From contig JAPLDH010000076.1 in NCBI GenBank assembly GCA_026391355.1, positions 1-64,000 of the forward strand: a stretch of 64,000 bases of DNA, written 5' to 3'. The DNA is from Bacteroidota bacterium (GTDB lineage: Bacteria > Bacteroidota > Bacteroidia > Bacteroidales > FEN-979). Position numbers and translations under genes: made by a program. The notes under the pieces were generated by a model. That model was not told the origin of the DNA. It saw only the letters and a list, made by a program, of their open reading frames with translations, and did no database searches. Positions 1,218 to 19,303 of the stretch are shown here, piece after piece. Each line of letters starts with the position of its first letter. Position 1 is the first letter of the stretch.

Positions 1218-1285
1218 ATGTGTGAATGATGTAACTCTTTTCTGCAATTGTGTAAGGCTTTTCGTAACCAAATGGCCCACCTTTG
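1218..1285 (+). promoter_or_regulatory. Stress-type promoter, copy A: paired TGTAA boxes plus CACCTTTG
   Basis: ATGTGTGAATGATGTAAC (1218-1235) is followed by a second box TGTAAG (1251-1256), starting exactly 21 bp after the first TGTAAC (1230-1235). After 21 more bases comes the -7-like CACCTTTG (1278-1285). The same arrangement occurs at 7837-7903, 18677-18744 and 19238-19303. The predicted start of transcription is near 1292, about 30 nt before the ATG at 1323. Confidence 0.75.
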
Positions 1286-1322
1286 TTCCGTGAAATTATT
1301 TCATGGTTTAAATTAAAAAAAG

Positions 1323-1835
1323 ATGAGAACAGTGAAATTTATGGTTATCGGCATGGCATTGTTTCTTGCAGGTGCAATACAGGCGCAGGTTTCAGTGAAT
1401 GTACATATTGGTGCACCTCCGCCCTGGGGCCCTGCCGGAGTTCCCGAAGTACGCTATTATTACCTGCCTGATGTGGAAGCCTATTATGATGTTCAGACTT
1501 CGATGTTTATCTATTTTGGAGGAGGAGTGTGGGTTCATCGGGCCAATCTTCCTTCGCAGTTCAGAAATTATGATTTATATGGTGGATATAAAGTGGTAAT
1601 GAAGGATTATCACGGCAATACACCTTATAATAATTTTAAAGAGCATAAAAGGAAATGGGGGAGAGGTTACCATGGGGAAGCCCAGAGAACGATTGGTGAG
1701 AGACCCGGAAAAGGAAACCCGGGGGGAAAAAATTCTCATGAAGGTAACCATGATAATAAAAGCGGTGGCCATGGTAATGATAAAAACATGAAAGAGGATC
1801 ATGGTCATGGTGATGGAAACGGAAAGAAAAAATAA
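1323..1835 (+). CDS. Small secreted protein with His/Gly-rich tail, unknown function
   Basis: The 170-aa product has a signal peptide (MRTVKFMVIGMALFLAGAIQ, cleaved after AQA) and an aromatic-rich middle (residues about 25-105, containing VRYYYLPDVEAYYDVQT and FIYFGGGVWVH) that looks like a small beta domain common in Bacteroidota secreted proteins. The tail (about 110-170) is rich in His, Gly, Asn and Lys and could bind metal; that is inference. The next gene begins 45 nt on and encodes a similar Tyr/Trp-rich domain, so the two probably form an operon from promoter copy A. Function is not known. Confidence 0.75.
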   Translation: MRTVKFMVIGMALFLAGAIQAQVSVNVHIGAPPPWGPAGVPEVRYYYLPDVEAYYDVQTSMFIYFGGGVWVHRANLPSQFRNYDLYGGYKVVMKDYHGNTPYNNFKEHKRKWGRGYHGEAQRTIGERPGKGNPGGKNSHEGNHDNKSGGHGNDKNMKEDHGHGDGNGKKK

Positions 1836-1880
1836 ATGGTAATAATAACAGTGTAATAACAGGATGATAAAAGAAAATGT

Positions 1881-3161
1881 ATGAAAGCTAAAATTAACAT
1901 TATTTCTCTGTTGCTCATGTTCTGTATAGTTGCATGGATAACACCTCAAAAAGCCACTGCACAGGGGGGATCTGTCAGCTTCCAGGTTTTTTATGATGAA
2001 TTAAGCCCTTATGGAACATGGGTAGATAACCCCGATTACGGATATGTCTGGGTACCCAACGTCGCTCCCGGGTTTTCTCCTTATGCTACGAACGGTTACT
2101 GGGTATTTACCGACGACGGGTGGACCTGGGTTTCCAATTATTCATGGGGATGGGCGCCTTTTCACTATGGTCGCTGGTACACCGATCCTACTTATGGACC
2201 TATGTGGGTTCCTGATAACGAATGGGGGCCTGGATGGGTTACCTGGAGAAGATCATCAAATTATTACGGGTGGGCGCCAATGGGACCCGGTATCAGTGTC
2301 AGTGTAGCTTATGGCGAAGGTTATAATGAACACTATAACCAATACACATTTGTCCGGGGTGGTTATATGGGAAGAACGAACATTAATAACTACTATGTCA
2401 ACAATTCAAACAATGTAACAATTATCAACAATTCCACTGTGATAAATAATACCAGGGTTGACAGAACGCGGAATGTAACATACAATGCAGGTCCCGACAG
2501 AGGTGAAGTTGAAAAGCGGGTTGGTAAACCAATCACCCCGGTCGCCATCAGGGAAAGCAGTAAACCCGGTCAGAATCTAAGCAAGAATCAGCTCCAGATA
2601 TACCGGCCACAGGTGCAAAGAAATGTCACCTCAGGGTCAAAACCTGCCCCGTTGAAAGTGGAGAACCTGAAAAATGTGAAACCTGCAGCACAAAGAACTG
2701 TTGAAACCCCGGTACAAAAAGCAAATCAAACCGTTAAGCAGCCATCACAACCAAAACCAGGAACACAACCGGTCAGGCAACCATCACAGCCGAAACAGGG
2801 TACACAACCTGTTAAGCAACCATCACAGCCAAAACAGGGTACACAACCTGTTAAGCAACCATCACAGCCAAAACAGGGTACACAACCTGTTAAACAGCCA
2901 TCACAACCACAAAGGACCGTACAACCGGATAAGAAGCAACCACAGCAACCGCAAAAGACCGTGCAACCACCTAAACAGCAACCACAGCAACCACAACGTA
3001 CTGTACAACCTCCTAAGCAGAAACCAGCACAACCACAGAAAACGGAGCCACCCAAAAAGGCAGAAGATGTGAAACAACCACAAAAAGACAACCCACCCAA
3101 AAAAGTGGAAGGTGAAAAAGAATTACAGCAACCTGTACCACCCAAATTTTTTAGGGAATAA
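1881..3161 (+). CDS. DUF6600-type secreted protein with Pro/Gln/Lys repeat tail
   Basis: The 426-aa protein begins with a signal peptide cleaved near ATAQG. Residues about 30-165 form a Trp/Gly/Tyr-rich region (SPYGTWVDNPDYGYVWVPN, SWGWAPFHYGRW, GWVTWRRSSNYYGWAPMGP) typical of DUF6600, an envelope family of unknown function. An Asn-rich stretch (about 168-200) follows, then a long hydrophilic tail (about 245-426) built of PxQP-K repeats, partly encoded by near-identical 39-nt repeats. Such tails usually span or bind the peptidoglycan layer; that is inference. It sits in the 1323-3400 cluster under the stress-type promoter. Confidence 0.8.
   Translation: MKAKINIISLLLMFCIVAWITPQKATAQGGSVSFQVFYDELSPYGTWVDNPDYGYVWVPNVAPGFSPYATNGYWVFTDDGWTWVSNYSWGWAPFHYGRWYTDPTYGPMWVPDNEWGPGWVTWRRSSNYYGWAPMGPGISVSVAYGEGYNEHYNQYTFVRGGYMGRTNINNYYVNNSNNVTIINNSTVINNTRVDRTRNVTYNAGPDRGEVEKRVGKPITPVAIRESSKPGQNLSKNQLQIYRPQVQRNVTSGSKPAPLKVENLKNVKPAAQRTVETPVQKANQTVKQPSQPKPGTQPVRQPSQPKQGTQPVKQPSQPKQGTQPVKQPSQPKQGTQPVKQPSQPQRTVQPDKKQPQQPQKTVQPPKQQPQQPQRTVQPPKQKPAQPQKTEPPKKAEDVKQPQKDNPPKKVEGEKELQQPVPPKFFRE
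2736..2930 (+). repeat. 39-bp tandem repeat inside the DUF6600 gene
   Basis: Five 39-bp units encode the 13-residue block KQPSQPKQGTQPV. Units 3 and 4 (2814-2852 and 2853-2891) are identical, unit 2 (2775-2813) is nearly so, and units 1 and 5 are diverged. The near identity points to recent expansion and probable length variation between strains. Confidence 0.9.
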
Positions 3162-3214
3162 AAGCAATTTTAATAACCAGTTCATTTATTATAAATAATT
3201 CTAAATCATTTATT

Positions 3215-3400
3215 ATGCCACTGTTCACTATTTTAATTGTACTGATTGTTGCTGGTGTCGTTCTATGGCTTGTCAATTCATACATCCCCATGGATCACAA
3301 GATCAAAACAATCTTCAACGTCGTAGTAGTAGTTGTTGTTATCGTTTGGCTTCTTAAGGTATTCGGACTTATTCATTACCTCATGAATATACATGTATAA
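3215..3400 (+). CDS. Thivi_2564-type small membrane protein
   Basis: The 61-aa protein has two membrane segments, residues about 3-22 (TILIVLIVAGVVLWLVNSYI) and 33-55, joined by the short charged loop PMDHKIKT. This pattern matches the Thivi_2564 family of small membrane proteins, whose role is unknown. It is the last gene of the 1323-3400 cluster and meets the oppositely oriented DUF3943 gene tail to tail with an 8-nt gap; no clear terminator hairpin lies between them. Confidence 0.8.
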   Translation: MPLFTILIVLIVAGVVLWLVNSYIPMDHKIKTIFNVVVVVVVIVWLLKVFGLIHYLMNIHV

Positions 3401-3408
3401 AACATGTT

Positions 3409-4980
3409 TCAATTATATTGACCTCTCCGCTGTTTATCCTCTAAATAGAACAACAGAAATATTTTCTGCTCATTCTGCCTTGAATGTAAACCTGGAGCAT
3501 TAAGTAAATACCGGTCATTGTAATAAAGAAAATATTCACATCCGATACTCAGATTTTTATAAAGCGTCACAGTAATTCTTGGTTTTAAAATGTGAATGTA
3601 ATTATTCCCACTTGCACCGATATAGGTTCGGATCATATAGAAATAATAGATCATTGACGCTGTCCCGTATTTACCAAGATTAAACGTGCTTTCAAACTTT
3701 CCCTCTACTCCTCCGCCATAAATATAATCTCTGACCTGGGTAGTATCCGATCCGACCTTTGCACTGCTTCCCGCAAAAGGTACGATAGCCAGATGAACCT
3801 TTGTATAAAGGTTGCTCGTTTTGCTTACCGGGTATTTGGAGATCACGCCACCACCGAAACCAATGGTACCCAACTCAAACTTTTTATTATCCCAGTAATC
3901 ATAATATTGAAATCCCCCGATGAGGAATGCCAGTTTTCCCAACTGTGCATTTTTACCGAATAAAATTCCATACCCGAGAATGTTATCCAGGTATTTTCGT
4001 CCCACACCGAAATTTAAATCTATGCGAAGCTTGAAAAAATCAAAAGGCTTTCGGGAACGGAGTTCAAAAGGATTTCCATAATCAAACTGAACGTTGACCA
4101 TTGCATTGTATGTTCCTTTTCCGAAGATACCTTTTGATGAATCATTGATCATACGTACCCCTCCGTAAAAAGAAATATTAATGGGCTCTTTCTCATATAC
4201 CTCTTTGTTGGTTCTCCTGAAAGTTTTCCCCTGTATCAGCCTGTTAAAACCCCTCATAGGGTCGATAATCCCGGCTCCTATTTCACGGAAAACCCTGTTT
4301 GCTCCTCTCGTACGGTCATCAAGAATATTCGAACTCAAGCGGTAAAGTATTTCTCCAAGAAATGTTCCATTGACCGGAGTATAGATAATATCATTATATG
4401 ACGGCCGCGTATTTTCTCCGAAATATTCCCACATCAAACTTCCGGCAACTGCAAAAGGAAAGGATTGAAGATAAGTGTAACCATTCGAACGCGCAGCATT
4501 ATAAGAAAGGGTTCCTGAATAGGGATGACCGATAAAATTTACCCCGAACCGGTCCTTATCCCATTCCCATCCGGCTTTGATATTATATTTCCAGGTTGGG
4601 ATCCCGATGTGTGCATAATCAGCATTCAATAGATACCTGTCCAGCGACCACGTCAAAACAAGGGTTCCCAGCACTTCAACTGCAGGTATCCATAGGTGAT
4701 ATCTTTTATTATACGCTGTATCATCATCAAGCAAATCCCCGTATTTATTTTGTTTTATGGTGTCAACGAGTACACTCTTCGCCGGCTCGTTGCCTGCTGA
4801 ATCTGAAAGCTTTTTTACTTTTACTGCCTTGATCTTATCGAGTTGCTTATCATCATTGCCTTTACTGCGGTTTATCGTATCATTGGGAGCCACTTTTTTG
4901 GGATTCTGAGGCGGCACATCTTGTCCATGCAGTAATGGAGAAAATAAAAATAATAAGGCTAATATGCAGGTTGCTTTCAT
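3409..4980 (-). CDS. DUF3943 outer-membrane protein
   Basis: The preferred start is the ATG at 4980, one base beyond the MlaD stop; it gives a 523-aa protein with a clear signal peptide (MKATCILALLFLFSPLLHG). A further 7 codons upstream would overlap MlaD. After a Lys/Asp-rich linker (about 20-85), residues about 90-260 carry the DUF3943 signature: a WSLDRYLLN segment, FIGHPYSGTLSYNAARSNG, YFGENTRPS and RGFNRLIQGK. The C-terminal half alternates polar and aromatic residues as a beta-barrel would. Being last in the MlaE-F-D operon, it may act at the outer-membrane end of the same lipid pathway; that is inference. Confidence 0.75.
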   Translation of the reverse strand: MKATCILALLFLFSPLLHGQDVPPQNPKKVAPNDTINRSKGNDDKQLDKIKAVKVKKLSDSAGNEPAKSVLVDTIKQNKYGDLLDDDTAYNKRYHLWIPAVEVLGTLVLTWSLDRYLLNADYAHIGIPTWKYNIKAGWEWDKDRFGVNFIGHPYSGTLSYNAARSNGYTYLQSFPFAVAGSLMWEYFGENTRPSYNDIIYTPVNGTFLGEILYRLSSNILDDRTRGANRVFREIGAGIIDPMRGFNRLIQGKTFRRTNKEVYEKEPINISFYGGVRMINDSSKGIFGKGTYNAMVNVQFDYGNPFELRSRKPFDFFKLRIDLNFGVGRKYLDNILGYGILFGKNAQLGKLAFLIGGFQYYDYWDNKKFELGTIGFGGGVISKYPVSKTSNLYTKVHLAIVPFAGSSAKVGSDTTQVRDYIYGGGVEGKFESTFNLGKYGTASMIYYFYMIRTYIGASGNNYIHILKPRITVTLYKNLSIGCEYFLYYNDRYLLNAPGLHSRQNEQKIFLLFYLEDKQRRGQYN

Positions 4981-4981
4981 C

Positions 4982-5782
4982 TTATTTTTTCTTTTTATCA
5001 ATTGCTTTTTGTTCTTTTATCTTTTGTTTTTCAGCTTCCTCTTTCTTTTTATTATTTGCTTTTTGTTCTTTTACCTTTTTTTCTTCAGCATCATCCTTCT
5101 TTTGTTGAGCCGCTTCTGCTTTCCTTCTGAAATAACCTCTTAAAAGCCAATTTTCCTTGGCTGCATTCATATTTTCATCCAACCCTTTGCTGCTTTTTTT
5201 AATATTCACCAAGGTCTGACTAAAATCATCTGCAATGGTTGAATCCTGGATTAATCTTCCGATTGTTCCCTGTCCACTATTTACTTTAATCATAATTTCT
5301 GCCAGGTTATCTGAAATAATTGCGGCATTAAATGCTGTCACCTGCAAACTTGCCATTATGGCATCTGTTTCAGCCGGCTCTTTTGACGCAATTTGTTCCC
5401 CGTCTTTTGCTAAAGGAGCATCATTACTTCCTTGCGTAAGAATTAAAATGCGATCACCAATGATTCCGGCAGAACCGATTCCTGCTTCACAATCCGATTT
5501 AATAAATTGACGGACACTTTTTTTAATTAACATTTCAACCTGTACAGTCGAATCATTTATTATATCAATATTATCAACAGTTCCTACATTGATTCCTGAA
5601 AAACGGACATTATTTCCTACCTGTAAGCCACTTACATTATAAAAAGTTGTGGTAAGTTTAAACACAGGATTAAATAAATTTTTCTGCTTTCCAATGAAGA
5701 ATATGGCAATTACAAAAAGTGCCAATCCTCCGACAATAAAAAGCCCTAACCGTACTTTGAATTTTGATGATTGAGTATCCAT
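4982..5782 (-). CDS. mlaD: MlaD-type MCE-domain lipid transport protein
   Basis: The 266-aa protein has one N-terminal membrane anchor (about 10-30, LGLFIVGGLALFVIAIFFIG) and an MCE domain (about 38-120) with the family pattern VSGLQVGNNVRFSGINVG and IIGDRILILTQGS. Proteins of this kind form periplasmic hexamers that receive lipids from the MlaE permease. The tail (about 205-266) is a Lys/Glu-rich coiled coil with repeats of the form EEAEKQKIKEQKA. It lies 36 nt after mlaF and 1 nt before the DUF3943 gene, so it is co-transcribed. Confidence 0.88.
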   Translation of the reverse strand: MDTQSSKFKVRLGLFIVGGLALFVIAIFFIGKQKNLFNPVFKLTTTFYNVSGLQVGNNVRFSGINVGTVDNIDIINDSTVQVEMLIKKSVRQFIKSDCEAGIGSAGIIGDRILILTQGSNDAPLAKDGEQIASKEPAETDAIMASLQVTAFNAAIISDNLAEIMIKVNSGQGTIGRLIQDSTIADDFSQTLVNIKKSSKGLDENMNAAKENWLLRGYFRRKAEAAQQKKDDAEEKKVKEQKANNKKKEEAEKQKIKEQKAIDKKKK

Positions 5783-5818
5783 ATTTTTATGGTATTAAAA
5801 CTGAGACTTTATAATTGA

Positions 5819-6595
5819 TTATTTAAAGAAAGATTTGATCAACGGGTCAGTTGACTTTTCAAACTTTTCCAATTCTCCTTCCTGATAAACTTCACCGTCG
5901 TGTAACATAATAACACGGTTTGCAGTTGTACGGGCACATTCAATATCATGGGTTATGATGATGGAAGAAGTTTTATATTTTTTCTGAACATCATTGATGA
6001 GTGAACTTATTTCATCTGAAGTTACCGGGTCGAGCCCCGTCGTGGGTTCATCATACAACATGATCATGGGGTCAACGACAATGGTTCGTGCCAGGCTGAT
6101 CCGTTTACGCATCCCCCCTGATAGTTGCGAAGGCATTTTATTCAAAGCATCAGCTAATCCCACGTTTTCAAGAACTTCTATTACTTTTTCGTCAATTTCT
6201 TGTTGTGTAAGATCCTTTTTTATTCTCCGCAATGGAAATTCCAGGTTTTGTTTCACAGTCATGGAATCATAGAGTGCACCACTCTGAAAAAGAAAACCAA
6301 TTTTTTTTCTCATCTCTCCCAAACCATCGCTGGTTAATTCACTCACATTTTCTCCAAGCACATTAATTGTTCCATGCTCGGGCTTTAATAAGCTAACAAT
6401 ACATTTTATCAGGACAGATTTTCCTGAGCCGGATTTTCCCAGCACGACCAGGTTTTCGCCATTAAAAAGCTGTAAAGACACATTTTTCAATACCTCCTGT
6501 GGACCAAATCCTTTCCGGAGCTCATTAATTTCAATGACCTGTTTTTCGCTTTTTGTTTTAGCCGGAGTAATCGGCGCTGTTTGGTTATCATTCAT
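5819..6595 (-). CDS. mlaF: MlaF-type ABC transporter ATPase
   Basis: This 258-aa cytoplasmic ATPase powers the MlaE/MlaD lipid transporter. Visible motifs: Walker A GKSGSGKS (about 53-60), signature LSGGMRKRISLAR (about 158-170), Walker B and catalytic Glu MIMLYDEPTTGLDP (about 177-190), and switch His IITHD (about 212-216). A non-conserved 20-residue N-terminal extension precedes the ABC core. It lies 29 nt downstream of mlaE; the spacer contains short ATTCATAATT repeats. Confidence 0.92.
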   Translation of the reverse strand: MNDNQTAPITPAKTKSEKQVIEINELRKGFGPQEVLKNVSLQLFNGENLVVLGKSGSGKSVLIKCIVSLLKPEHGTINVLGENVSELTSDGLGEMRKKIGFLFQSGALYDSMTVKQNLEFPLRRIKKDLTQQEIDEKVIEVLENVGLADALNKMPSQLSGGMRKRISLARTIVVDPMIMLYDEPTTGLDPVTSDEISSLINDVQKKYKTSSIIITHDIECARTTANRVIMLHDGEVYQEGELEKFEKSTDPLIKSFFK

Positions 6596-6624
6596 AATTT
6601 ATAATTCATCATTCATAATTATGA

Positions 6625-7470
6625 TTACAGCATATCGGTAATTTGCACAGCAATCAGGTCCACAATAATCACGAGTAATGAGGATAGTACTACAGCTGAA
6701 TTCGCTGCAATACCCACACTCTCTGTTCCCCGGCCTGCAGTATATCCTTTATAACAGCCGACCAAACCAATCACAGCACCGAAAAAAAACGTTTTGATAA
6801 ATGCCGGGAAAAAATCAAGAAACTGAACATGGCCGAATGCCTGTGAGAAAAACAATATAAAAGTTACATCTCCTTTGATATTCGCGCCTGCCCAGCTTCC
6901 TAAAATGCCAAGTCCGTCAGCATAGAGCACCAATATGGGTATCATCAGTGTTGCTGCCAGAACTCTTGTAACCACTAAAAATCGTATGGGATTGGTGGAT
7001 GATACCTCCATGGCATCAATCTGCTCCGTAACTTTCATTGAACCCAATTCTGCGCCCATGCCTGAACCTATTTTTCCTGCGCATATCAATGCCGTGATAA
7101 CCGGCCCCATTTCCCTGATGAGAGAAATGGTCACCATGCCCGGAAGCAGGGAAACTGCTCCGAAATTGACAAGGGCCGGACGCGATTGGATCGTAAGCAC
7201 CAGACCCATGATGATCCCGGTAACTGAAATCAGCGGCAGGGATTTATACCCGATTTGAAAACACTGACGCAGAAATTCCCTGAATTCAAAATCACGGGAA
7301 AAAGATTCCTTAATGGTGCATGATATGAATAAAAAAACACTGGCTACTTCTGAAAAAAAACTATTGGCTTCTACAGTTTTTTCAATAGTTTTTTCGCTGA
7401 GGCGGATAACATGTTTTTTTGCACCCTGAAGGTTTGGGATTCCTTTGATAACAGGACTAAATTTCTTCAT
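6625..7470 (-). CDS. mlaE: MlaE-type lipid ABC transporter permease
   Basis: The 281-aa integral membrane protein belongs to the MlaE/permease family (residues about 70-280, five or six membrane segments). It carries the signature region IREMGPVITALICAGKIG followed by GAELGSMKVTEQIDAMEV. The ATG at 7470 (MKKFSP) is preferred over the in-frame TTG two codons upstream. It is the first gene of the mlaE-mlaF-mlaD-DUF3943 operon and has a promoter-like CACCTTTG 25 nt upstream of the start. Confidence 0.92.
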   Translation of the reverse strand: MKKFSPVIKGIPNLQGAKKHVIRLSEKTIEKTVEANSFFSEVASVFLFISCTIKESFSRDFEFREFLRQCFQIGYKSLPLISVTGIIMGLVLTIQSRPALVNFGAVSLLPGMVTISLIREMGPVITALICAGKIGSGMGAELGSMKVTEQIDAMEVSSTNPIRFLVVTRVLAATLMIPILVLYADGLGILGSWAGANIKGDVTFILFFSQAFGHVQFLDFFPAFIKTFFFGAVIGLVGCYKGYTAGRGTESVGIAANSAVVLSSLLVIIVDLIAVQITDML

Positions 7471-7494
7471 GATCAACCGGTTATTTTAACAATA

Positions 7495-7612: not shown

Positions 7613-7774
7613 TCACCACCAATTCCGGCGACTGCTAAACAAATCGAGGATGATCAGGATTACACCAATAACAATCAGTGCATGAACAATTGGAGAAGTT
7701 AAATGAAACGCAAAAAATCCAAGCAACCAAAGGACAATAAGTATGATCCCTATGATCATTAACAATCTAGCCAT
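7613..7774 (-). CDS. Lmo0937/DUF5670-type 53-aa membrane peptide
   Basis: An ATG at 7774 opens a 53-aa frame ending at TGA 7613-7615. It has two hydrophobic segments (about 4-23 and 31-46) with LLMIIGIILIVLWLLGFFAF, resembling the Lmo0937/DUF5670 family of stress-associated membrane peptides. A second member lies at 17335-17490. Its own promoter (copy B of the shared stress element) ends 62 nt upstream, so it can be expressed independently of the genes before it. Role unknown. Confidence 0.75.
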   Translation of the reverse strand: MARLLMIIGIILIVLWLLGFFAFHLTSPIVHALIVIGVILIILDLFSSRRNWW

Positions 7775-7836
7775 AGCTTTAAATTTTTAAAGTGAATACT
7801 CTTTTATTTTCAAATACTTATAAAAAAATTCCGGGT

Positions 7837-7903
7837 TAAAGGTAGGATCAAAACCAAAAAAAACATTACACAACTCTGGAAATAAGTTACATCATTCACA
7901 CAT
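7837..7903 (-). promoter_or_regulatory. Stress-type promoter, copy B
   Basis: On the minus strand TGTGTGAATGATGTAAC ends at 7886; the second box TGTAAT occupies 7870-7865, 21 bp after the first TGTAAC (7891-7886). After 20 bases comes TACCTTTA (7844-7837). Same architecture as at 1218, 18677 and 19238. It serves the 53-aa membrane peptide at 7774. Confidence 0.75.
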
Positions 7904-7921: not shown

Positions 7922-8293
7922 CTACCGTAAACGTTTTACGCTGTCAACCAGATATCCCGAATCACCATGCCAGAATAAAGCTCCATTTTTTTGTTTATAA
8001 TGAACGATCACCATTCGTCCCTGCATAGTATCGAGCTGTTTTGCCATTTTTTCGTTAGTAACCGAAAAATAAAATTTTTCTGAAGCAATGGCAACATTCA
8101 TATTACTGGACACACTGCTTAATATCATTTCGCCTTCATAGGTTTTGATGATATTACCTTTATGAGAGAATTTCTGCAATAATCCGGCACGATACCCATC
8201 ACTGTATGTATAAAAATACTTCCAGTAAATGAAAATACCCGTTACAATTATTATCAGGGTAATAAATAAATAAAATGTTTTTTTAAGGATCAT
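7922..8293 (-). CDS. Conserved single-pass membrane protein, unknown function
   Basis: The ATG at 8293 overlaps the preceding stop as ATGA and is preferred over an upstream TTG. The 123-aa product has one N-terminal membrane segment (about 6-23) and a small extracytoplasmic domain with YSDGYRAGLLQKFSHKGNI and KTYEGEM. Close relatives are common in Bacteroidota and are sometimes labelled 6-phosphogluconate dehydrogenase, which its size rules out. It follows the bacterioferritin remnant and is probably co-transcribed with it. Confidence 0.7.
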   Translation of the reverse strand: MILKKTFYLFITLIIIVTGIFIYWKYFYTYSDGYRAGLLQKFSHKGNIIKTYEGEMILSSVSSNMNVAIASEKFYFSVTNEKMAKQLDTMQGRMVIVHYKQKNGALFWHGDSGYLVDSVKRLR

Positions 8294-8514
8294 TTTACCG
8301 GACAAACGGTTTGAGTAGCCAGATAATTTTCCATACCCATTTGCTCAATCTGAGCACGTTGTGCTTCTGCCCAATCTACATGGCCTTCTTCCATCTTGAG
8401 GATCCAGGTCAGTATGTCAACGGTACCCTGATCATCAACCTCACGGGCAAGTTTGATCGCGTCATCTGCCAGAAGCGAATTCAGGACTGTAATTAATTTT
8501 TTATTTCCTTTCAT
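8290..8514 (-). pseudogene. Bacterioferritin-like gene with an in-frame internal deletion
   Basis: The 74-aa frame joins a bacterioferritin-like N-terminus (MKGNKKLITVLNSLLAD, residues 1-17) directly to a C-terminal helix region (AIKLAREVDDQGTVDILTWI... EEGHVDWAEAQRAQIEQMG, about 19-66). Bacterioferritins are usually near 155 residues; the roughly 80 residues between, carrying helices A-B and most iron ligands (the E of LTDELTAINQY, the ExxH of the second helix), are missing. The EEGH pair of the last helix remains. It cannot fold as a normal ferritin; it may be a relic or a small protein kept for another reason. Start and downstream coupling (ATGA) are intact. Confidence 0.75.
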
Positions 8515-9118: not shown

Positions 9119-9682
9119 TTAAAGATTGTTCTGCTTTTTAAAGCCTGAAATATCAACCACCGATAAAAGGCTTGTCCGTTCATCGCCGGTAACTATGCCT
9201 TCAATATAAACAAAGCATAATGGATTATTTTCATAACCAAGCATCACTTCGCATGATTCTTTGGCATTGCTGGTATAAACCTTACTAAAAAAATCGTTAA
9301 ATACAGGCTGCGAATCTTCGGAAACGAATAGCTTAAAGTTGCTGTTTACCAAGCTAAATCGTTTATCATTAAGCATTTCGGCGCCAGTGAAGTTCATCTC
9401 GCAAATACTGCCGTCACGATCGAGTGTAAAATAGCCCATCGGGGCAAAATCGTACAACATGGTATATTTTTTAAGAGCAGTTTCTACCGTTTCATTTGCC
9501 TGACGCAACTCTTCGTTCTGCATTTCTAATTCAATCTGGTGCACCTGAAGTTCATGCAAAAGTTTTTTTGAGTCAGTTTCCATAACAGGTGTATCCGATT
9601 TTTTTTGTTTTTCTCTCAGCTTTTCTTCGGCCTTTCTGCGAAGCATTTGCTCATCCGTAAAATTCCGTTTTTCTTTACTCAT
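9119..9682 (-). CDS. PAS-domain protein with coiled-coil head
   Basis: The 187-aa protein begins with a charged coiled coil (about 5-65, including LHELQVHQIELEMQNEELRQ), then a PAS domain (about 72-180: YDFAPMGYFTLDRDG, FTGAEMLN). There is no kinase, cyclase or other output domain. It starts 7 nt after the CheB-CheR-PAS gene, whose own coiled coil and PAS domains are similar, so the two may pair as a split sensor; that is inference. Confidence 0.8.
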   Translation of the reverse strand: MSKEKRNFTDEQMLRRKAEEKLREKQKKSDTPVMETDSKKLLHELQVHQIELEMQNEELRQANETVETALKKYTMLYDFAPMGYFTLDRDGSICEMNFTGAEMLNDKRFSLVNSNFKLFVSEDSQPVFNDFFSKVYTSNAKESCEVMLGYENNPLCFVYIEGIVTGDERTSLLSVVDISGFKKQNNL

Positions 9683-9689
9683 TGTATAA

Positions 9690-12608
9690 TTATTTTTTTA
9701 GTGATAAAATCATTCCTGCTGGCATTTTCAGGTTGTTGAGCAGTACACTTACGGACCATTTATCAACTGTCATATTGCCTTCTGCTGCTAATACCTGCAT
9801 ATTGAATTTGCCACCCAGTAATTTGTTCAGGATTTTATTTATATCATTTTCAGTCTTTTTTCGTAAATTTTCAGGAATAAACATCTGAAAATAATTTTGG
9901 TTTACTGCATCCTCACGTTTTTGGCCGAAAAATTTTTCGGCTCCAGGATTAAACTCCAGTATTTTCCCGTCGGTTGATAGTTTAATTATTATATCTGAGG
10001 ATGATTTTAAGAGCAAACTATTCAACTGTTCTGTTTCGTGTAATTTTACTTCCACCTGCTTGAGATCGGAGATGTTGAAAAAAGTGATGACCAGGCCGTC
10101 TATTCTGTCGTCGAAGGTGCGGTATGGCATAATGCGAATGGAAAACCATCTCCCGTCTTTGGTTGGAATTGGTTTTTGTATAAAAACGAGGGAATTTAAT
10201 ACTTTGAGCGCATCTGCAGCCAATTCGGGGTATATAAGGTCGGAAACCAGGTCGGTAAAAGGTCGGCCAAGGTCGCTTTTTATCAGTTTAAAAAGTTTGG
10301 TAGCCTGAATGGTATAGCGACGGATATTCAATTCTTTGTCGAGAAACAGAGTAGCAATATCAGTACTGTTGAGCAGGTTTTTCATATCATTGTTCACCCG
10401 CAGAAAATCATCTACCTTCGACTGCAATTCAGCGTTTAACATTTGAAGTTCTTCATTCATGCTTTGCATTTCTTCTTTTGAACTCGTAAGTTCTTCATTG
10501 GTAGATTGCAGTTCTTCATTTGTAGATTGTAATTCCTCGTTTGTTGATTTCAGTTCTTCCTGCGAAGTCTGCATTTCTTCGAGCGTGTCCTGCATTTTTT
10601 CATGTGCATACTTTAACTCTTTCTCCAACTCTGTTTGCCTGATACTGTTGATAGTCTTCTTTTCTGTTTTTGCACGCAGTTTAATGTTGGTAATATCCGG
10701 CACATCAGTAAAGATTATCATTACCATGCCGTTTAAAGGCTCCGGTTTATCAATCCATTGAATGTTAACATTTACGATTTGTGTACCCCCATTTGTGCCT
10801 ACTTTGATATTACGCAAAATCACCGCTTCTTTGTTTATTATAGCTTTGTGGAAAGCGCCAGAAAAATCGTTGCGCAAGCCTTCACGTAACATTGCAAAAA
10901 TATTCATGTTTGCTTTCCCAACCGCCGGTTCCAGATATTTTCCCGTACGTCCGCTGATGTAAATAATATCGCCATTTTCGTTCACCAAAACACCTGCGGG
11001 TGAAAAGTGCTGCAACAACAGTTGATCGGCAAGCGTTTGAATATTCAGGGTTGATTTTACAAGTATTTGTTTTTCAATGTTGATCGGTTTAGACCGGGAA
11101 AATGTAGCGGGAAAATCGAAAAATTCAGGGGATAGATTAGTAATGGCGCGTTTGTAAATTTTCAATTTGGCATCCACAGGTGTAAAAAGATGACTCTGCA
11201 ACCCAAGCGTTTCGGAGCTGCCTAGCAGCATAATTCCTCCAGGGTTAATACTGTGATAAAACAGTCCTAACAATTTCTTTTGCAACTCGGGCTCCAGGTA
11301 AATAAGCAGATTCCGGCATGAAAGGATATCGATTTTGGTAAAAGGCGGATGCATGATAAGGTTGTGTTGTGCAAACACAACCGTTTCCCTTATTTCAGTA
11401 TTGATGAAATAGCCTTCATCTGTAGTAAGAAAAAAGCGATTCAAACGATTTGGTGTCACATCGGCAGCAATATTTGCAGGAAATATCCCTTTTCTGGCTG
11501 TTTCAATCGCTTCATTGTCGAGATCGGTAGCAAATATCTGTAACGAAAAGCCTCCATGCGGATTGATTTTTTCAAGTGCTTCTTTAAACACTATGGCTAA
11601 TGAATATGCTTCTTCTCCGGTAGAACACCCGGGTATCCATGCCCGCAATATTGAACCGGGTTGCAGGTTAGCAATAATAGTTGGAATAACCGTCTCTTTC
11701 AACTGTTCCCATACTAAAGCATCGCGGAAAAAAGTAGTGACACCAATCATCAATTCTTTGAAAAGAATATCTACTTCCTTTGGATTTTCCTGTAAAAATT
11801 GGACATATGAAGATATCTTATCAATTTTGTGGACGCCTATGCGTCTTTCGATGCGGCGATACATCGTATTCTTTTTATATAATGAAAAGTCATTGCCGGT
11901 ATAGGTTCGCAGCAGAATAATAATTTTTTCGAGAGCGCTTTTGTCTTTAATATCTGGATCCAGATCTGATTTGACAACCGGAATATGTTTTAGAAATTCC
12001 AGGAGCCTGGAGGGCAACTCGTTGGCTGGTGCCACAATATTGACCATTACGGAATCGATGGCGTTACGGGGCATGCTGTCATATTTGGCCGTGGTAGGGT
12101 CCTGTACCATCACTATTCCGTTTTTTTCTTTTATGGCCCGAAGTCCTAAACTGCCGTCGGAACCCATGCCCGAAAGAATGAGACCGATACTGCTTTCCTG
12201 TTGGTCGTTGGCAAGTGAGCGAAAGAAAAAATCAATCGGAAGGCGCAGTCCTCTTGCTTCCTGTGGTTCAAACAGGTGAAGCGCTCCCTTTGATATGGAC
12301 ATGCTCTTGTTCGGAGGAATTACATACACACAATTTATCTTGACAGCCATCCGGTCTTTTACCTGAAAAACTTTCATTTTGGAAATTCGCTGAAGCAACT
12401 CCGGCAACATGCCTTTTTGTGTAGGATCCAGATGTTGAATGACAACATACGCCATTCCGCTGTTTTCAGGCACATTACCGAGAAATTGCTCCAATGCTTC
12501 CAGTCCGCCAGCCGAAGCGCCGATACCGACAATTGGAAACAGACCGGCAGTTAAATCAGAACTCTTTTTTTTGGAAGATATGGTCGATTTTAGTTTCTTG
12601 GGTTTCAT
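9690..12608 (-). CDS. CheB-CheR-PAS fusion signalling protein
   Basis: The 972-aa cytoplasmic protein joins a CheB methylesterase (about 25-205: GIGASAGGLEALEQF, SGMGSDGSLGLRAIKEKNG, DSMPRNAI), a CheR methyltransferase (about 215-485: YRRIERRIG, IPGCSTGEEAYSLAI, ATDLDNEAIETARKG, SCRNLLIYL), a PAS-like region, a long coiled coil of STNEELQ-type repeats (about 650-720) and two further PAS domains. The CheB receiver domain and any kinase are absent. Such fusions are widespread in Bacteroidota without chemotaxis arrays. No methyl-accepting protein, CheA or CheW lies in the window. It follows a glycosyltransferase by 44 nt in the long minus-strand block. Confidence 0.9.
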   Translation of the reverse strand: MKPKKLKSTISSKKKSSDLTAGLFPIVGIGASAGGLEALEQFLGNVPENSGMAYVVIQHLDPTQKGMLPELLQRISKMKVFQVKDRMAVKINCVYVIPPNKSMSISKGALHLFEPQEARGLRLPIDFFFRSLANDQQESSIGLILSGMGSDGSLGLRAIKEKNGIVMVQDPTTAKYDSMPRNAIDSVMVNIVAPANELPSRLLEFLKHIPVVKSDLDPDIKDKSALEKIIILLRTYTGNDFSLYKKNTMYRRIERRIGVHKIDKISSYVQFLQENPKEVDILFKELMIGVTTFFRDALVWEQLKETVIPTIIANLQPGSILRAWIPGCSTGEEAYSLAIVFKEALEKINPHGGFSLQIFATDLDNEAIETARKGIFPANIAADVTPNRLNRFFLTTDEGYFINTEIRETVVFAQHNLIMHPPFTKIDILSCRNLLIYLEPELQKKLLGLFYHSINPGGIMLLGSSETLGLQSHLFTPVDAKLKIYKRAITNLSPEFFDFPATFSRSKPINIEKQILVKSTLNIQTLADQLLLQHFSPAGVLVNENGDIIYISGRTGKYLEPAVGKANMNIFAMLREGLRNDFSGAFHKAIINKEAVILRNIKVGTNGGTQIVNVNIQWIDKPEPLNGMVMIIFTDVPDITNIKLRAKTEKKTINSIRQTELEKELKYAHEKMQDTLEEMQTSQEELKSTNEELQSTNEELQSTNEELTSSKEEMQSMNEELQMLNAELQSKVDDFLRVNNDMKNLLNSTDIATLFLDKELNIRRYTIQATKLFKLIKSDLGRPFTDLVSDLIYPELAADALKVLNSLVFIQKPIPTKDGRWFSIRIMPYRTFDDRIDGLVITFFNISDLKQVEVKLHETEQLNSLLLKSSSDIIIKLSTDGKILEFNPGAEKFFGQKREDAVNQNYFQMFIPENLRKKTENDINKILNKLLGGKFNMQVLAAEGNMTVDKWSVSVLLNNLKMPAGMILSLKK

Positions 12609-14869: not shown

Positions 14870-15890
14870 AAGATAACAATTCAGACAACAGTTCTGATAA
14901 ATTCACCGAAGCGACGGCAATTTGAGTATCAGCAGCACCATAATAAATATATAAGGTATTTCCAAACAAGGAAGTACCGGTAGGGAAAACCACATTATTT
15001 ACATCTCCTTTTAATTCCCATTCGTATTCAGGCGAAAACAGTACATTGGGAAGCCGCGCCACTTCTTTCCAGGGATCATTCAAATCCAATAAGGCAGCAC
15101 ACGCTGAATATACAAACCCTTTATCAGTTTCTCCCCCTCCATGATAAATCAACAGCCATCCGTGTTCTGTTTCAATGGGAGTGCAGCCACCACCAATGTA
15201 ACTTGACTCATGCGGATAAACAGGGTCGAGCACGATATGGTCATGAAGGTTGAGAAAGTAATTTCCCCAAAATTCCTTGGTGAGTTCCTTTATGCTATTT
15301 ACAGAGACAATTTGAATGCCCGGCCTTATCCGGTGAAGAAAAACCAGTTTTCCACTAATCTTTCGGGGAAAGAAAATTACATCTTTGTCCCATAGCATTA
15401 TTTTTTTTTCCGGATCTGTTTCCTGATAGTAAAACTTATGATTGTGGTAATAATTTTGATTTATATTACCGGCAGATTCAGCGAGTGTTACAAATTCTGA
15501 ATACGTGATGGAAGGAACAATGATCCCCTGTTTTGTAAAATGTTTTAAATCTTCTGAAGTAGCTAATGCCCCACGGGCATTTGTCCCATCATACGCGGTG
15601 TACGTCATATAAAACAGATCATCAATTTTTACAATCCGTGGATCTTCAACGCCATGAGATTCATAATCGAATTCAGGAACCATGAAAGGCTTATCCCAAC
15701 GTTCAACAACTTTCAAGGGGCCTTCGAGCCTGCAGTAGCCGATACTTGAATGATTTCCCTGTTGCACGGCTCTGTAAAAAAGATGAATGGTTTCGCCTTC
15801 CTGTATTATAGCTGGATTCAGTACACCTTCGTTTTCAAATTCCAAACCGGTCTTTGTCAATATTATTCCTTCTTTTTTAACGGCTATCAT
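14859..15890 (-). CDS. GH130-family glycoside phosphorylase/hydrolase-like protein
   Basis: The 343-aa protein has the five-bladed propeller pattern of GH130: NEGVLNPAIIQEGETIHLFYR, GVEDPRIVKIDDLFYMTYTAYDG (with the usual catalytic Asp in EDPR), YIGGGCTPIETEHGWLLIYHG, and YYGAADTQIAVA. GH130 enzymes phosphorolyse or hydrolyse beta-mannosides. There is no signal peptide, so it should act in the cytoplasm. It overlaps the AI-2E-type gene upstream by 4 nt (ATGA) and the glycosyltransferase downstream by 11 nt, which implies tight coupling. Confidence 0.85.
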   Translation of the reverse strand: MIAVKKEGIILTKTGLEFENEGVLNPAIIQEGETIHLFYRAVQQGNHSSIGYCRLEGPLKVVERWDKPFMVPEFDYESHGVEDPRIVKIDDLFYMTYTAYDGTNARGALATSEDLKHFTKQGIIVPSITYSEFVTLAESAGNINQNYYHNHKFYYQETDPEKKIMLWDKDVIFFPRKISGKLVFLHRIRPGIQIVSVNSIKELTKEFWGNYFLNLHDHIVLDPVYPHESSYIGGGCTPIETEHGWLLIYHGGGETDKGFVYSACAALLDLNDPWKEVARLPNVLFSPEYEWELKGDVNNVVFPTGTSLFGNTLYIYYGAADTQIAVASVNLSELLSELLSYEK

Positions 15891-17020
15891 TTTGCCTTCT
15901 TTTTAATTTTTTTTAAGATCGGTTCAATTGTTATTATTGAGGGCATGGTATCACCTAATAAAAATCCCCAGGGTTTTAACGGTCCGATATGGTCGAAAAC
16001 AAGTTTTACAACAGCAAGGAGGGGTATGGAAAGGAACATACCGGGGATGCCCCATAAAGCATTCCCGGCGAGTACCACTAATATGGCAATAAGCGCGTTG
16101 ATTTTTACTTTTGAAGCAACAATATAAGGAACGATGTAGTGATTGTCGATCAGTTGGATGAAATAATAGGCTGCCAGGACATATACGGCATACCATGCGG
16201 TTGATTTGGTGGCCACTGCAATCATCATGGGCAATGCCACTGCCACAACTCCCCCTATGTATGGAATGACGTTGAGCAGTGCGCCTATGATTCCCAGCAG
16301 GATCGCATAATCGATCCCAAGTATCAACAGAGCAGTGGAATCCAGCACAGCTACAATGACTGCTTCGATAACCAGTCCTATAAGATAGCGTTGAATAACG
16401 CTTTTGGTTTGGGTAACTACCTCCTTTACCTCACTTTGGTGATCTGTGGCAAAGAGTCTTCTGATAAATTCCAGAAGCAGGGGCTGATAGTATAACAGCA
16501 TAAAGATGTAGACAGGAATTAAGAACAATACCACAATCCCACTACCAACGGTAAGGAGTGTTTGCCCGATTGCATTACTGCTGGTATTGATGAGTTCATC
16601 TTTCGTGTTTGTAATCCAGTCATGGATCTTTTGTGAGTCAATATCGAAATAGCCGGAAGCCCAGGTAATGGTTTGGTTGAATATTCCGGTGAATTTATCA
16701 ACCAGAACCGGCCAGGATGAACTGAACCGGCTTGCCTGCGAAAACAGAAAAGCGCCAAACGCGGCAATAAGAGAAAAGGCGAGAATCAAGGTAATCAGAA
16801 TAGCCAGAACCCTGTTTATTTTTCTCCGCACAAAAAAATCTACGACCGGGTGGAGTACAATGGCAATAATTATTGCAAACAGTAGGGGAACAATGATACC
16901 CTTACCGATGTACAACATCGCTAGTAAGGCAAACAAACCAATGAAAATTAAAGTTGCCTTAACGTAAAATGGCAGATTCAATGCTTTTCCTATCACGACT
17001 TGGGTTTTGACACCTTTCAA
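15887..17020 (-). CDS. AI-2E-type (PF01594) membrane transporter
   Basis: The 377-aa protein has about eight membrane segments in the layout of the AI-2E family (two near 20-60, one near 70-92, a long loop, then a helical bundle from 150 on). Family motifs include PYIGGVVAVALPMMIA and NALWGIPGMFLSIPLLA. Members export autoinducer-2, ions or unknown solutes. The start is a TTG overlapping the YtxH stop (TTGA); no nearer ATG keeps the first membrane helix. Confidence 0.87.
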   Translation of the reverse strand: MKGVKTQVVIGKALNLPFYVKATLIFIGLFALLAMLYIGKGIIVPLLFAIIIAIVLHPVVDFFVRRKINRVLAILITLILAFSLIAAFGAFLFSQASRFSSSWPVLVDKFTGIFNQTITWASGYFDIDSQKIHDWITNTKDELINTSSNAIGQTLLTVGSGIVVLFLIPVYIFMLLYYQPLLLEFIRRLFATDHQSEVKEVVTQTKSVIQRYLIGLVIEAVIVAVLDSTALLILGIDYAILLGIIGALLNVIPYIGGVVAVALPMMIAVATKSTAWYAVYVLAAYYFIQLIDNHYIVPYIVASKVKINALIAILVVLAGNALWGIPGMFLSIPLLAVVKLVFDHIGPLKPWGFLLGDTMPSIITIEPILKKIKKKAK

Positions 17021-17295
17021 TCCTTGACAGTTTTTCCGGCTTTTTCAGCTTTTTCCATCTTGACGTTGCCTTTTTCAGCCAATTCGGAAACTTCGTCCTT
17101 TACCATTTCAAAATTTTCAGTAATGCTTTTAAGAAATTCATTAAAATCTTCTTTTAATGAATCCGCATAGTCTTCTCCCTTTTTAGATATTTTTTTTCTG
17201 GTTTTGGACCCTTTATCGGGGGCAAACAAGACCCCTAACAATGCACCGGCAGCAACACCGGCCAGTAAGCCTAATAAAACTTTTCCCGAGCTCAT
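17017..17295 (-). CDS. YtxH-domain stress protein
   Basis: This 92-aa protein starts with a Gly/Ala-rich hydrophobic segment (LLGLLAGVAAGALLGVLFAP) followed by DKGSKTRKKISKKGEDYADS and a charged amphipathic helix rich in Lys/Glu, the standard YtxH layout. YtxH proteins are general-stress membrane proteins of unknown mechanism. It overlaps the AI-2E-type gene by 4 nt and is part of the YceI-led operon. Confidence 0.88.
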   Translation of the reverse strand: MSSGKVLLGLLAGVAAGALLGVLFAPDKGSKTRKKISKKGEDYADSLKEDFNEFLKSITENFEMVKDEVSELAEKGNVKMEKAEKAGKTVKD

Positions 17296-17334
17296 ACTGT
17301 TATATTTAAAATAATTGTTAATAAAGCGTTGAAA

Positions 17335-17490
17335 TTAAAGAATTTTTCTTCCCTGAATAACCCTGAACAGGATTGCAATAATTGCAATAACAAGAAGAAT
17401 GTGTATAATGCCTCCGGCACTGTAGGCAAAAAATCCGATGGCCCATGCAATGACCAGGATCACTGCTACGATATAAAGTAAGTTTCCCAT
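17335..17490 (-). CDS. Lmo0937/DUF5670-type 51-aa membrane peptide
   Basis: An ATG at 17490 opens a 51-aa frame ending at TAA 17335-17337. It carries two hydrophobic segments (about 4-22 and 27-44: LLYIVAVILVIAWAIGFFAY and GGIIHILLVIAIIAILF) and a basic end (QGRKIL). It is paralogous to the 53-aa peptide at 7613-7774 and lies between a coiled-coil lipoprotein and YtxH in the same orientation. Confidence 0.8.
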   Translation of the reverse strand: MGNLLYIVAVILVIAWAIGFFAYSAGGIIHILLVIAIIAILFRVIQGRKIL

Positions 17491-17512
17491 GACGATAAGA
17501 TTTTAAGATTAA

Positions 17513-17962
17513 TTATTTATTTTTAACTGTGAAATTTTTAAAAGCTTTTCCGAGTTCGGCCATATCATGTTTAAATTTGAACCTGAATGCATCCCATTTG
17601 TCTTTTTGATCTTCCCTGAATTCTTCCAGATCCTTTTTCATTTGGTTGTTCTTCTGTTCCAACAAGGTCAATTGCCTTTCGTACTCGGCTCTGTTTTCTT
17701 TTCTTTCCTTTGCTATTTTTACTTTAAATTCTGCGATGCTTTTTTCATTGGCGTTGATTTGTTCCTGAGATTCTTTTTTGAATTGTTGAATAGAATCTTT
17801 AATCGTCTGATTCAGTTCTTGTTTGGCTTCTATCACTTTATCTTTTGCTTCCTGCACTTTGTCCTGAGCATTTTCTACTTTTGTAGATGACGACTGGCAA
17901 CCGGTAAACATTGTTCCTGCCATAAGCATTGTTATGGCAAGGGTAAAAATTGTTTTCTTCAT
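17513..17962 (-). CDS. Coiled-coil lipoprotein
   Basis: The 149-aa protein has a lipoprotein signal ending in the lipobox FTGC (Cys21), so it is probably anchored in the outer membrane facing the periplasm. The rest is one long charged coiled coil with heptad-like repeats (AQDKVQEAKDKVIEAKQEL, then E/K-rich to residue 149). It shares the stress-gene neighbourhood (YceI upstream, membrane peptide downstream). A structural or envelope-spacer role is possible but unproven. Confidence 0.8.
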   Translation of the reverse strand: MKKTIFTLAITMLMAGTMFTGCQSSSTKVENAQDKVQEAKDKVIEAKQELNQTIKDSIQQFKKESQEQINANEKSIAEFKVKIAKERKENRAEYERQLTLLEQKNNQMKKDLEEFREDQKDKWDAFRFKFKHDMAELGKAFKNFTVKNK

Positions 17963-18029
17963 TTAGTTTGGTTTTTCTTGTTTAAGAATTTTGTTGACTG
18001 GTATTAAAATTTCTTATCAGGATTTCCTG

Positions 18030-18638
18030 TTAAATCTCAACTTTATTGTCGGTTCCAGGTTCCAGTTGCATTGTCAGGTCTTCCTGACCGATATTGATGA
18101 GTTCAATTTCGCAAGAAATTGTTACCTCATCACTCACCATTAATCCTCCGGTTTCCAGGGATGCATTCCATGTAAGGTCCCAGTTGCTTCTGTTGATTTT
18201 TCCGGTAACATTAAATCCTGCTTTTTCATTACCCCAGGGGTCATTTACAATTCCTCCGAATTGTACATTTAACTTTATGTTTTTGGTCACCCCCCTCATT
18301 GTTAATTCTCCCCATAATTCATGATTACCATCCGGATCTGATTTTCCAATCGTGCTTGAAATGAATGTTATTTGTTTATGGTTTTGAACATCAAAGAAAT
18401 CAGCGCTTTTTAAATGCTCATCACGTTTTGCATCACCTGTAGTTATCGAGGAGGCGTCTATCCACAGGTCAATTTCAGAAGTACTGAAGTCTTTGGCAAT
18501 TGTATAAATACTTGCATCAAATATTCTGAATGCACCTTTAACATGGGCAATCATTAAATGTCGCACTTTAAATGCAATTTCACTATGGGCCTGGTCGATT
18601 GACCATTTTGTTTTTGTTGTATCATCATCTGTTCTCAT
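18030..18638 (-). CDS. YceI-family protein
   Basis: The 202-aa protein has the YceI lipocalin-like pattern: WSIDQAHSEIAFKVRHLMIA (about 12-31), IDASSITTGDAKRDEHLKSADFFDV, and FNVTGKINRSNWDLTWN. YceI proteins bind isoprenoid-like lipids and are often induced by stress. No signal peptide is visible, unlike many relatives, so a cytoplasmic location is likely. The promoter is copy C of the shared stress element, 39 nt upstream of the start; it probably heads the operon that runs to the chemotaxis-like genes. Confidence 0.9.
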   Translation of the reverse strand: MRTDDDTTKTKWSIDQAHSEIAFKVRHLMIAHVKGAFRIFDASIYTIAKDFSTSEIDLWIDASSITTGDAKRDEHLKSADFFDVQNHKQITFISSTIGKSDPDGNHELWGELTMRGVTKNIKLNVQFGGIVNDPWGNEKAGFNVTGKINRSNWDLTWNASLETGGLMVSDEVTISCEIELINIGQEDLTMQLEPGTDNKVEI

Positions 18639-18676
18639 TTCTGTTTTTTTAATTGTTTTGTTTGGAATTTAGGATA

Positions 18677-18744
18677 CAAAGGTGATTCCCTTTGACCTGA
18701 AAAGTGTTACACAACTCCGGCAATAAGTTACATCATTCACACAT
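18677..18744 (-). promoter_or_regulatory. Stress-type promoter, copy C
   Basis: On the minus strand ATGTGTGAATGATGTAAC (18744-18727) is followed by TGTAAC (18711-18706), 21 bp from the first TGTAAC, and 21 bases later by CACCTTTG (18684-18677). It drives the YceI gene. Confidence 0.8.
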
Positions 18745-18783
18745 TTGAGGTGAATTGGTTGGGAATATCAACGCCATTGCCAT

Positions 18784-19122
18784 TTATTCATAACCGCTTT
18801 TAATGATGGTCGAAATCATTTTAAAACGTTCGTTACCTTTAACACTATTTGCCATATGAGCCGGAATAATAATCGAATCACCTGTATCGAGGAAATTCGA
18901 TATTCCATCAATCAGGATCTCGGCTTTGCCGTCAATGATCTGGACAAATGTGTCGAATGGGATTATTTTTTCAGCCATGGCCTCACCAGTATCACATGAA
19001 ACCGCTGTGACATTCCCGGTTGTTTTTTTTATTATGGTTTTAATAACTACTGAATTTGGAATATATTCAATGATCTCAACTATAATGAATGCTTTTGCTT
19101 TCTCAACTTCGGTAGTTTCCAT
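18784..19122 (-). CDS. Cupin-domain protein
   Basis: The 112-aa protein shows a single cupin fold: IPFDTFVQIIDGKAEILIDG (about 58-77) and LDTGDSIIIPAHMANSVKGNERFKMI (about 80-105). The usual first-motif His pair is not evident, so metal binding is doubtful. Small cupins of this type often accompany stress or sensor genes. Its promoter is copy D of the shared element, 116 nt upstream; the leader contains a short overlapping frame described separately. Confidence 0.75.
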   Translation of the reverse strand: METTEVEKAKAFIIVEIIEYIPNSVVIKTIIKKTTGNVTAVSCDTGEAMAEKIIPFDTFVQIIDGKAEILIDGISNFLDTGDSIIIPAHMANSVKGNERFKMISTIIKSGYE

Positions 19123-19180
19123 GTCCTTTTGATATAAAAGTTATTACTTCCCTGACCTTTTTTATTTTAAGGGTTGACAT
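19103..19180 (-). other. Possible 25-codon leader frame overlapping the cupin start
   Basis: An ATG at 19180, preceded by AAAGGAG at good spacing, opens a 25-codon basic frame (MSTLKIKKVREVITFISKGH...) that ends inside the cupin gene in another frame. The cupin ATG itself has its purine run only about 2 nt away. The short frame could couple translation, or be chance. Confidence 0.3.
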
Positions 19181-19237
19181 TATTATTCTCCTTTGATTCA
19201 ATCCGGAATGTGAATGTGGGAATAAGAAATTACACCA

Positions 19238-19303
19238 CAAAGGTGCGACTCATTATTTTGAAACCCGTTACATAACTTTGGAAATAAGTTACATCATTCA
19301 CAT
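19238..19303 (-). promoter_or_regulatory. Stress-type promoter, copy D
   Basis: On the minus strand TGTGAATGATGTAAC ends at 19288; TGTAAC (19272-19267) follows 21 bp after the first TGTAAC, and 21 bases later comes CACCTTTG (19245-19238). The upstream half overlaps the last codons of the AraC-type regulator. It serves the cupin gene. Confidence 0.78.

Follow-up and report, generated by a model that had tools for sequence, protein, structure and literature searches.

The 64,000-nucleotide stretch that we analyzed from a Bacteroidota bacterium of the order Bacteroidales (contig JAPLDH010000076.1, positions 1 to 64,000; hereafter the window) carries four promoters sharing one architecture, namely two TGTAA boxes set 21 bp apart and followed at an almost constant distance by a third element. 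Comparison with the remainder of the host genome and with numerous relatives suggests that these two-box promoters are very probably switched on by a 188-residue protein encoded in the same window (19298-19864, minus strand), in which an N-terminal HMA-like domain appears to be combined with a C-terminal AraC-type DNA-binding domain, and that this candidate regulator, the boxes and the kinds of genes behind them recur together in many Bacteroidota. The geometry of the element, the register of its third part, the co-occurrence and adjacency of regulator and boxes, and the recurrence of particular targets all emerge from comparison of sequences.

The first box, TGTGAATGATGTAAC, occurs in the window as four exact copies, at 1221-1235 on the plus strand and at 7886-7900, 18727-18741 and 19288-19302 on the minus strand. 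In each of the four the second TGTAA begins exactly 21 bp past the first, and a third element follows, which is CACCTTTG at 21 bp further in three copies and TACCTTTA at 20 bp further in the remaining one (7844-7837). This is the geometry described in the original prediction, made from the window alone, and its four-promoter observation is confirmed by every copy; beyond it, we find that the third element looks like a -7 promoter box and that there are more than four such promoters. Promoter A (1221-1285, plus strand) comprises box 1, TGTGAATGATGTAAC, at 1221-1235, box 2, TGTAAG, at 1251-1256 and the -7 element CACCTTTG at 1278-1285, with a predicted start at about 1290. The other three lie on the minus strand: promoter B (7837-7900) has its boxes at 7900-7886 and 7870-7865, the -7 element TACCTTTA at 7844-7837 and a predicted start near 7832; promoter C (18677-18741) has them at 18741-18727 and 18711-18706, with CACCTTTG at 18684-18677 and a predicted start near 18672; and promoter D (19238-19302) has them at 19302-19288 and 19272-19267, with CACCTTTG at 19245-19238 and a predicted start near 19233. 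Box 1 of promoter D shares bases with the final codon and the stop of the candidate regulator gene itself. When up to three mismatches to TGTGAATGATGTAAC are tolerated only two weak matches are added, and the resulting total of six is within chance (shuffles average 2.98, and 10 of 100 reach six), so that the case for the element rests on the exact copies together with the further evidence below.

A search of the entire 4.83 Mb host genome for the two-box pattern with at most two mismatches recovered 12 occurrences, eight of them exact, versus a single one for the reversed pattern; with three mismatches the counts were 13 and 3. The same 12 places were recovered at E 1.9e-8 or better, with the next match at E 0.097, by a profile that spans the two boxes and the third element and had been trained on 63 sites from other organisms, although this own-genome test, which scored 150 of 3266 first-look candidates, is not fully independent because the training sites had been chosen with a matrix from the same genome. 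The host genome therewith has 12 promoters of this type, well separated by E-value from everything else, and the supposition of the original prediction that the spacing is not due to chance is borne out: a chance origin of the element was set aside, the reversed-pattern controls being far below the real counts. Outside the region from 10 bp before the box to 100 bp past its start, the mean identity among the 12 copies is only 0.22-0.31; these flanks are unrelated, and the copies are therefore not parts of one long repeat.

The candidate regulator has an AraC-type DNA-binding domain (Pfam HTH_18, E 1.2e-16, residues 98-175), and by sequence its matches among solved structures are AraC-type chains only (6 sequences). 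A structure model (mean pLDDT, i.e. predicted local distance difference test score, 87) places an HMA-like fold before this domain. The N-terminal part contains the motif M8-x-C10-x-R12-C13, in which the MxCxxC signature is present, and Met8, Arg12 and Cys13 are invariant across 30 aligned relatives. Among 80 relatives two subtypes can be recognized, a C subtype with MxCxRC (28) and an S subtype with MxSxRC (52); Arg-Cys is found at positions 12-13 in 78 of the 80, and the remaining two have shifted match frames. The host genome encodes a single full-length homolog of the regulator, a second match being partial and 28% identical. Neither Pfam nor NCBIfam, where every match fell far short of its curated cut-off, has a dedicated family for it, and a search of the literature, with subscription journals mostly outside its reach, returned no description of this motif or regulator.

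The suggestion of the original prediction that this very gene encodes the regulator is supported by the relatives. We assembled 80 regulator loci, the best 80 of at least 543 confirmed candidates, and called boxes in them with a matrix from the 12 host-genome sites at a cut-off of 10 bits. This yielded 211 boxes in 71 of the 80 loci, versus none for the column-reversed matrix; in the other 9 loci no box was found at 10 bits. A box lies at the 3' end of the regulator gene in 26 loci, overlapping the last codon and stop in 25 and directly following the stop in one (L089). A further 22 loci, every one of the S subtype, have a box upstream of the start of the regulator match, by 84-112 nt in 21 and by 197 nt in one, which points to autoregulation. 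Loci with both boxes and regulator include those titled Flavobacterium, Chitinophaga, Mucilaginibacter and Niastella, among others. One contig (L094) encodes an S-subtype regulator (9170-9910, minus strand) and a C-subtype regulator (10001-10558, plus strand) head to head, which suggests that they are paralogs, perhaps with a common operator. In L093, a contig that bears the title Myxococcales bacterium, there is a 72%-identical regulator with one box, through either horizontal transfer or mis-binning.

The association extends to genomes sampled across the order. At least three boxes are present in 33 of 45 genomes with a close regulator versus 8 of 153 others (198 genomes; p 3.6e-20), and the mean number of sites is 7.3 with a close regulator versus 0.4 to 1.2 in the other classes of genome. 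Within families, 18 of 21 discordant pairs differ in the expected direction (Wilcoxon p 3e-4). A sample across the phylum, searched by profile under stricter filters, with 26 candidates scored in each genome, repeats the order-level association more weakly: strong sites occur in 12 of 24 genomes with a close regulator (11 of 23 without the window's genome) versus 7 of 174 others (p 1.6e-8). By position, co-occurrence and type of site the protein at 19298-19864 is the best candidate for the reader of the boxes.

The many sites from relatives also permit a closer look at the anatomy of the promoter. As the matrix is confined to the 36 bp that the two boxes span, the -7 register could be counted independently of it: of 210 sites, 157 have A..TTT at one fixed downstream offset and a further 29 have it a single base closer, versus 0 to 9 sites at the other offsets tested (-20 to +23). 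In Flavobacterium psychrophilum the sigma-A promoter box is reported as TAnnTTTG at -12 to -5 (PMC9723704), and the third element looks like such a Bacteroidota sigma-A -7 box with a relaxed first base, since the first T is kept in only 44 of the 157 exact-register sites and is otherwise relaxed to C or G. Counting back from this predicted -7 box, box 2 (TGTAAC) would lie at about -39 to -34 and box 1 (TGTAAC) at about -60 to -55. The self-similarity of the motif at lag 21 is 0.262 over 15 columns, the highest among lags 5-29; lag 30 scores higher (0.313), but over only 6 columns. By this measure the boxes are direct repeats with a 21-bp period, the half-site arrangement typical of AraC-type proteins, which agrees with the earlier idea of a tandem-site activator bound two helical turns apart. 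With downstream open reading frames (ORFs) called by a simple ATG rule, some of which will be wrong, an ATG-initiated ORF of 40 aa or more starts 66-260 nt downstream of 191 of the 211 boxes versus 2235 of 4220 random positions, and in 133 of the 191 the start is 80-119 nt from the box start. The boxes, with their -7 element in fixed register, are thus not placed at random relative to genes.

The genes behind the boxes in relatives fall into recurrent families. From 182 distinct complete ORFs we dropped any that exceeded 800 aa or began over 200 nt away from the box, leaving 167, of which the first 150 were scanned against Pfam; as these were taken in locus order, loci after L139 are missing from the tally, whose figures come from the top 25 of 68 matched families. 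As raw counts, for which no background rate was computed, the 150 targets include 20 AraC-type regulators, 16 ice-binding proteins, 10 CsbD, 9 OmpA, 9 cupin, 7 Big_5, 6 DUF5670, 5 glycine zipper, 3 MlaE, 3 BON and 2 ferritin proteins. To judge from these family assignments the target set includes general-stress families (CsbD, DUF5670, BON and ferritin, along with YtxH and an sll1863-family protein in the window), and some regulator loci hold clusters of several boxes. In 17 C-subtype loci a same-strand ORF of at least 100 aa was found next after the regulator, and in 10 of them it looks cupin-like by eye, as it does in the window. Among S-subtype loci 29 of 35 scanned following ORFs (of 38) carry a PAS domain; the three unscanned ones (L102, L105 and L138) do not look like PAS proteins. 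The view of these promoters as a stress- and envelope-type regulon under a tandem-site activator is hence supported by the comparative data, "stress" being read from the gene families.

In the window itself all four genes that had been named as targets in the original prediction are present behind boxes. Target A (1323-1835, plus strand) encodes a secreted His/Gly-rich protein whose BLAST homologs stand behind boxes in 4 of the 80 regulator loci, and is followed by a gene for a DUF6600 protein (1881-3161, plus strand), which is probably part of the same transcript; a DUF6600 homolog is a box target in one of the 80 loci and another, of 63% identity, stands behind a box in L185. Target B (7613-7774, minus strand) is a DUF5670/Lmo0937-type membrane peptide, with homologs that are box targets in 6 of the 80 loci; downstream of it at 4982-7476 on the minus strand lie genes for an MlaE permease (6625-7476), an ABC ATPase (5819-6595) and MlaD (4982-5782), which may be co-transcribed with it. 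Target C (18030-18638, minus strand) is YceI, with a homolog that is a box target in one of the 80 loci, and is followed on the same strand by genes for an sll1863-family stress protein (17513-17962) and YtxH (17017-17295), again possibly in one transcript. Target D (18784-19122, minus strand), with homologs behind boxes in 19 of the 80 loci, is a cupin-like protein that has no Pfam match of its own and takes its name from relatives. The remaining boxes of the genome precede genes for a CsbD protein (homologs of which are box targets in 13 of the 80 loci), a PAP2 protein, an OmpA protein, a patatin, a His-rich peptide of 73 aa that has a signal-like start (homologs of which are box targets in none of the 80), a 42-aa ORF with a 135-aa protein behind it, a 190-aa ORF that is HlyD-like by eye and has no Pfam match, and a 276-aa protein without a Pfam match.

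Some neighboring genes deserve mention. Divergent from the regulator are genes for a FIST-domain protein and a hybrid histidine kinase (20121-23261, plus strand), for which position alone makes a role as signaling partners possible. The full row (20121-26374, plus strand) consists of the FIST protein, the hybrid histidine kinase and a Reg_prop/Y_Y_Y histidine kinase, and might feed into the regulon. A gene for an ice-binding (DUF3494-type) protein with a weak IPTL-CTERM tail (165-971, plus strand) lies shortly before promoter A; the genome profile search found no box before it, though the family is a frequent target in relatives. At 8290-8514 on the minus strand a 74-aa ORF matches only positions 100-142 of a 142-position ferritin profile, and looks like a truncated Dps-type remnant.

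Taken together, we favor a model in which transcription from the element depends on an activator, in the manner of a class II promoter. Two copies of the regulator would bind the two direct-repeat half-sites 21 bp apart, the downstream half-site taking the place of the sigma-A -33 element so that RNA polymerase could use the weakened -7 box. The HMA-like N-terminal domain, with its conserved Arg-Cys and the MxCxxC of one subtype, might sense a thiol, metal or other stress cue, perhaps with a contribution from the neighboring histidine kinases, and the active regulator would then turn on genes of envelope and stress type, in many relatives together with its own. That the protein binds the boxes and activates transcription, what it senses, and a part for the kinases are what we infer from the sequences.

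The strongest competitor, which we nonetheless regard as improbable, is that another DNA-binding protein, for example a response regulator of the neighboring kinases, binds the boxes and that the HMA-AraC protein is merely a member of the regulon. The PAS proteins following the regulator in many S-subtype loci, and the boxes of some genomes that have no close regulator, are in keeping with this; however, the 21-bp direct repeat is an AraC-type arrangement, regulator and boxes co-vary within families, and the DNA-binding gene that bears a box at its end or front encodes an AraC-type protein. Somewhat less probable again is a repressor released by a signal: AraC-type proteins in general can act both ways, yet here box 2 occupies the -33 position and the -7 box is weakened, as expected of promoters that depend on an activator. 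Recognition by an alternative sigma factor of the ECF (extracytoplasmic function) type, with the boxes as an upstream element, would account for the fixed spacing to the -10 region, but the direct repeats reach back to about -69, beyond known sigma contacts, and the element has a variant of the sigma-A TAnnTTTG reported in PMC9723704 as its downstream box, making this very unlikely. That the boxes are a mobile or recombination repeat, as the clusters at some loci might hint, has next to no likelihood given the unrelated own-genome flanks, the divergence of the stretch between the boxes, and a constrained -7 register and start-codon distance that would be unexpected of such a repeat. These last two candidates, the alternative sigma factor and the mobile repeat, were set aside on the -7 register, the flank divergence and the reversed-pattern controls.

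Several observations weigh against activation of the two-box promoters by the HMA-AraC protein. The assignment of an HMA (ferredoxin-like) fold to its N-terminal domain is a modest match: Foldseek retrieves CopZ, GolB and Atx1-type chains at probability 1.00, with target template modeling (TM) scores of 0.62-0.68 and E 0.06-0.09, below the AraC-domain matches, and Pfam gives no HMA match there at E 0.001. Fewer than three sites are found in 12 of the 45 order genomes with a close regulator, and 12 of the 24 such phylum genomes have no site at E 1e-4; in a laxer re-search of the latter 12, 11 have at least one weak match at E 0.05, which in two (G347 and G258) is within 50 nt of the regulator gene, and one (G210) has none. 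Conversely, eight order genomes with at least three sites lack a close regulator (G004, G046, G107, G150, G053, G055, G128 and G174). Re-examination of the first four of these yielded no settled explanation, incomplete assemblies being possible for G004, G046 and G150. G107, with 15 boxes, has only an N-terminal S-subtype fragment of the regulator (L193:6246-6440, G107:C193), which diverges after about 60 residues and runs into a stop codon after roughly 75, about 100 nt short of the end of the contig. Outside the class of the window's organism, 7 strong sites were found in each of G208 and G213, whose only homologs of the regulator are distant ones, each followed after 72-185 nt by a weak match, and G389 has 2 strong sites and no regulator homolog at 1e-8; another protein may read the box in these three. 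Finally, similarity to the regulator shows a weak correlation even with the reversed-pattern control (rho 0.15, p 0.035), compared with 0.50 for the real pattern. The misfit genomes accordingly leave room for gene loss together with assembly gaps, for diverged relatives or for a second protein that reads the box.

On a broader scale the system might represent a general stress and envelope response of Bacteroidota, in which an AraC-type activator with a metallochaperone-like sensor and a two-box promoter fill the role of SigB or RpoS in the phylum and some neighboring groups, with sensor kinases inside the regulon; we advance this as a tentative proposal, somewhat more doubtful than not. We know of no general stress regulon established for Bacteroidota, and our search of the literature did not settle the matter. 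If the proposal were true, with induction by several stresses, it would supply such a response for the phylum. The candidate regulator, operator, promoter geometry and target list combine into one testable package, which would give a regulatory context to little-known families like DUF5670, the cupin-like protein and the ice-binding proteins, and the promoter could serve as a reporter.

In relation to known systems, the literature searched gave no account of the regulator architecture, the operator or the widespread stress-type regulon; the mode of DNA binding is already known. E. coli AraC binds the direct-repeat half-sites araI1-I2, and the candidate resembles AraC/XylS activators in its C-terminal AraC-type helix-turn-helix and in half-sites set as direct repeats 21 bp apart beside the core promoter. 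Unlike AraC, it has a predicted HMA-like rather than a sugar-binding cupin-type N-terminal domain, is only 188 aa long, and is associated with stress- and envelope-type targets rather than sugar catabolism. With HMA/CopZ-type proteins it shares the fold matches to CopZ, GolB and Atx1 and, in the C subtype, MxCxxC; however, the S subtype has MxSxxC and hence lacks the usual metal-binding pair, and the target families seen here are not metal-efflux genes. General stress regulons are governed by SigB in Bacillus and Listeria and by RpoS, and they resemble the present one in having CsbD, ferritin/Dps, BON and small membrane peptides among their targets, as well as YtxH, which is found in the YceI run of the window; here, in contrast, a candidate sequence-specific activator would act at sigma-A-type promoters in place of an alternative sigma factor. 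The Bacteroidota sigma-A promoters, as described in PMC9723704, share the AnnTTT(G/A) core of the -7 box, but in the two-box promoters the first T is relaxed to C or G and the second box takes the -33 position.

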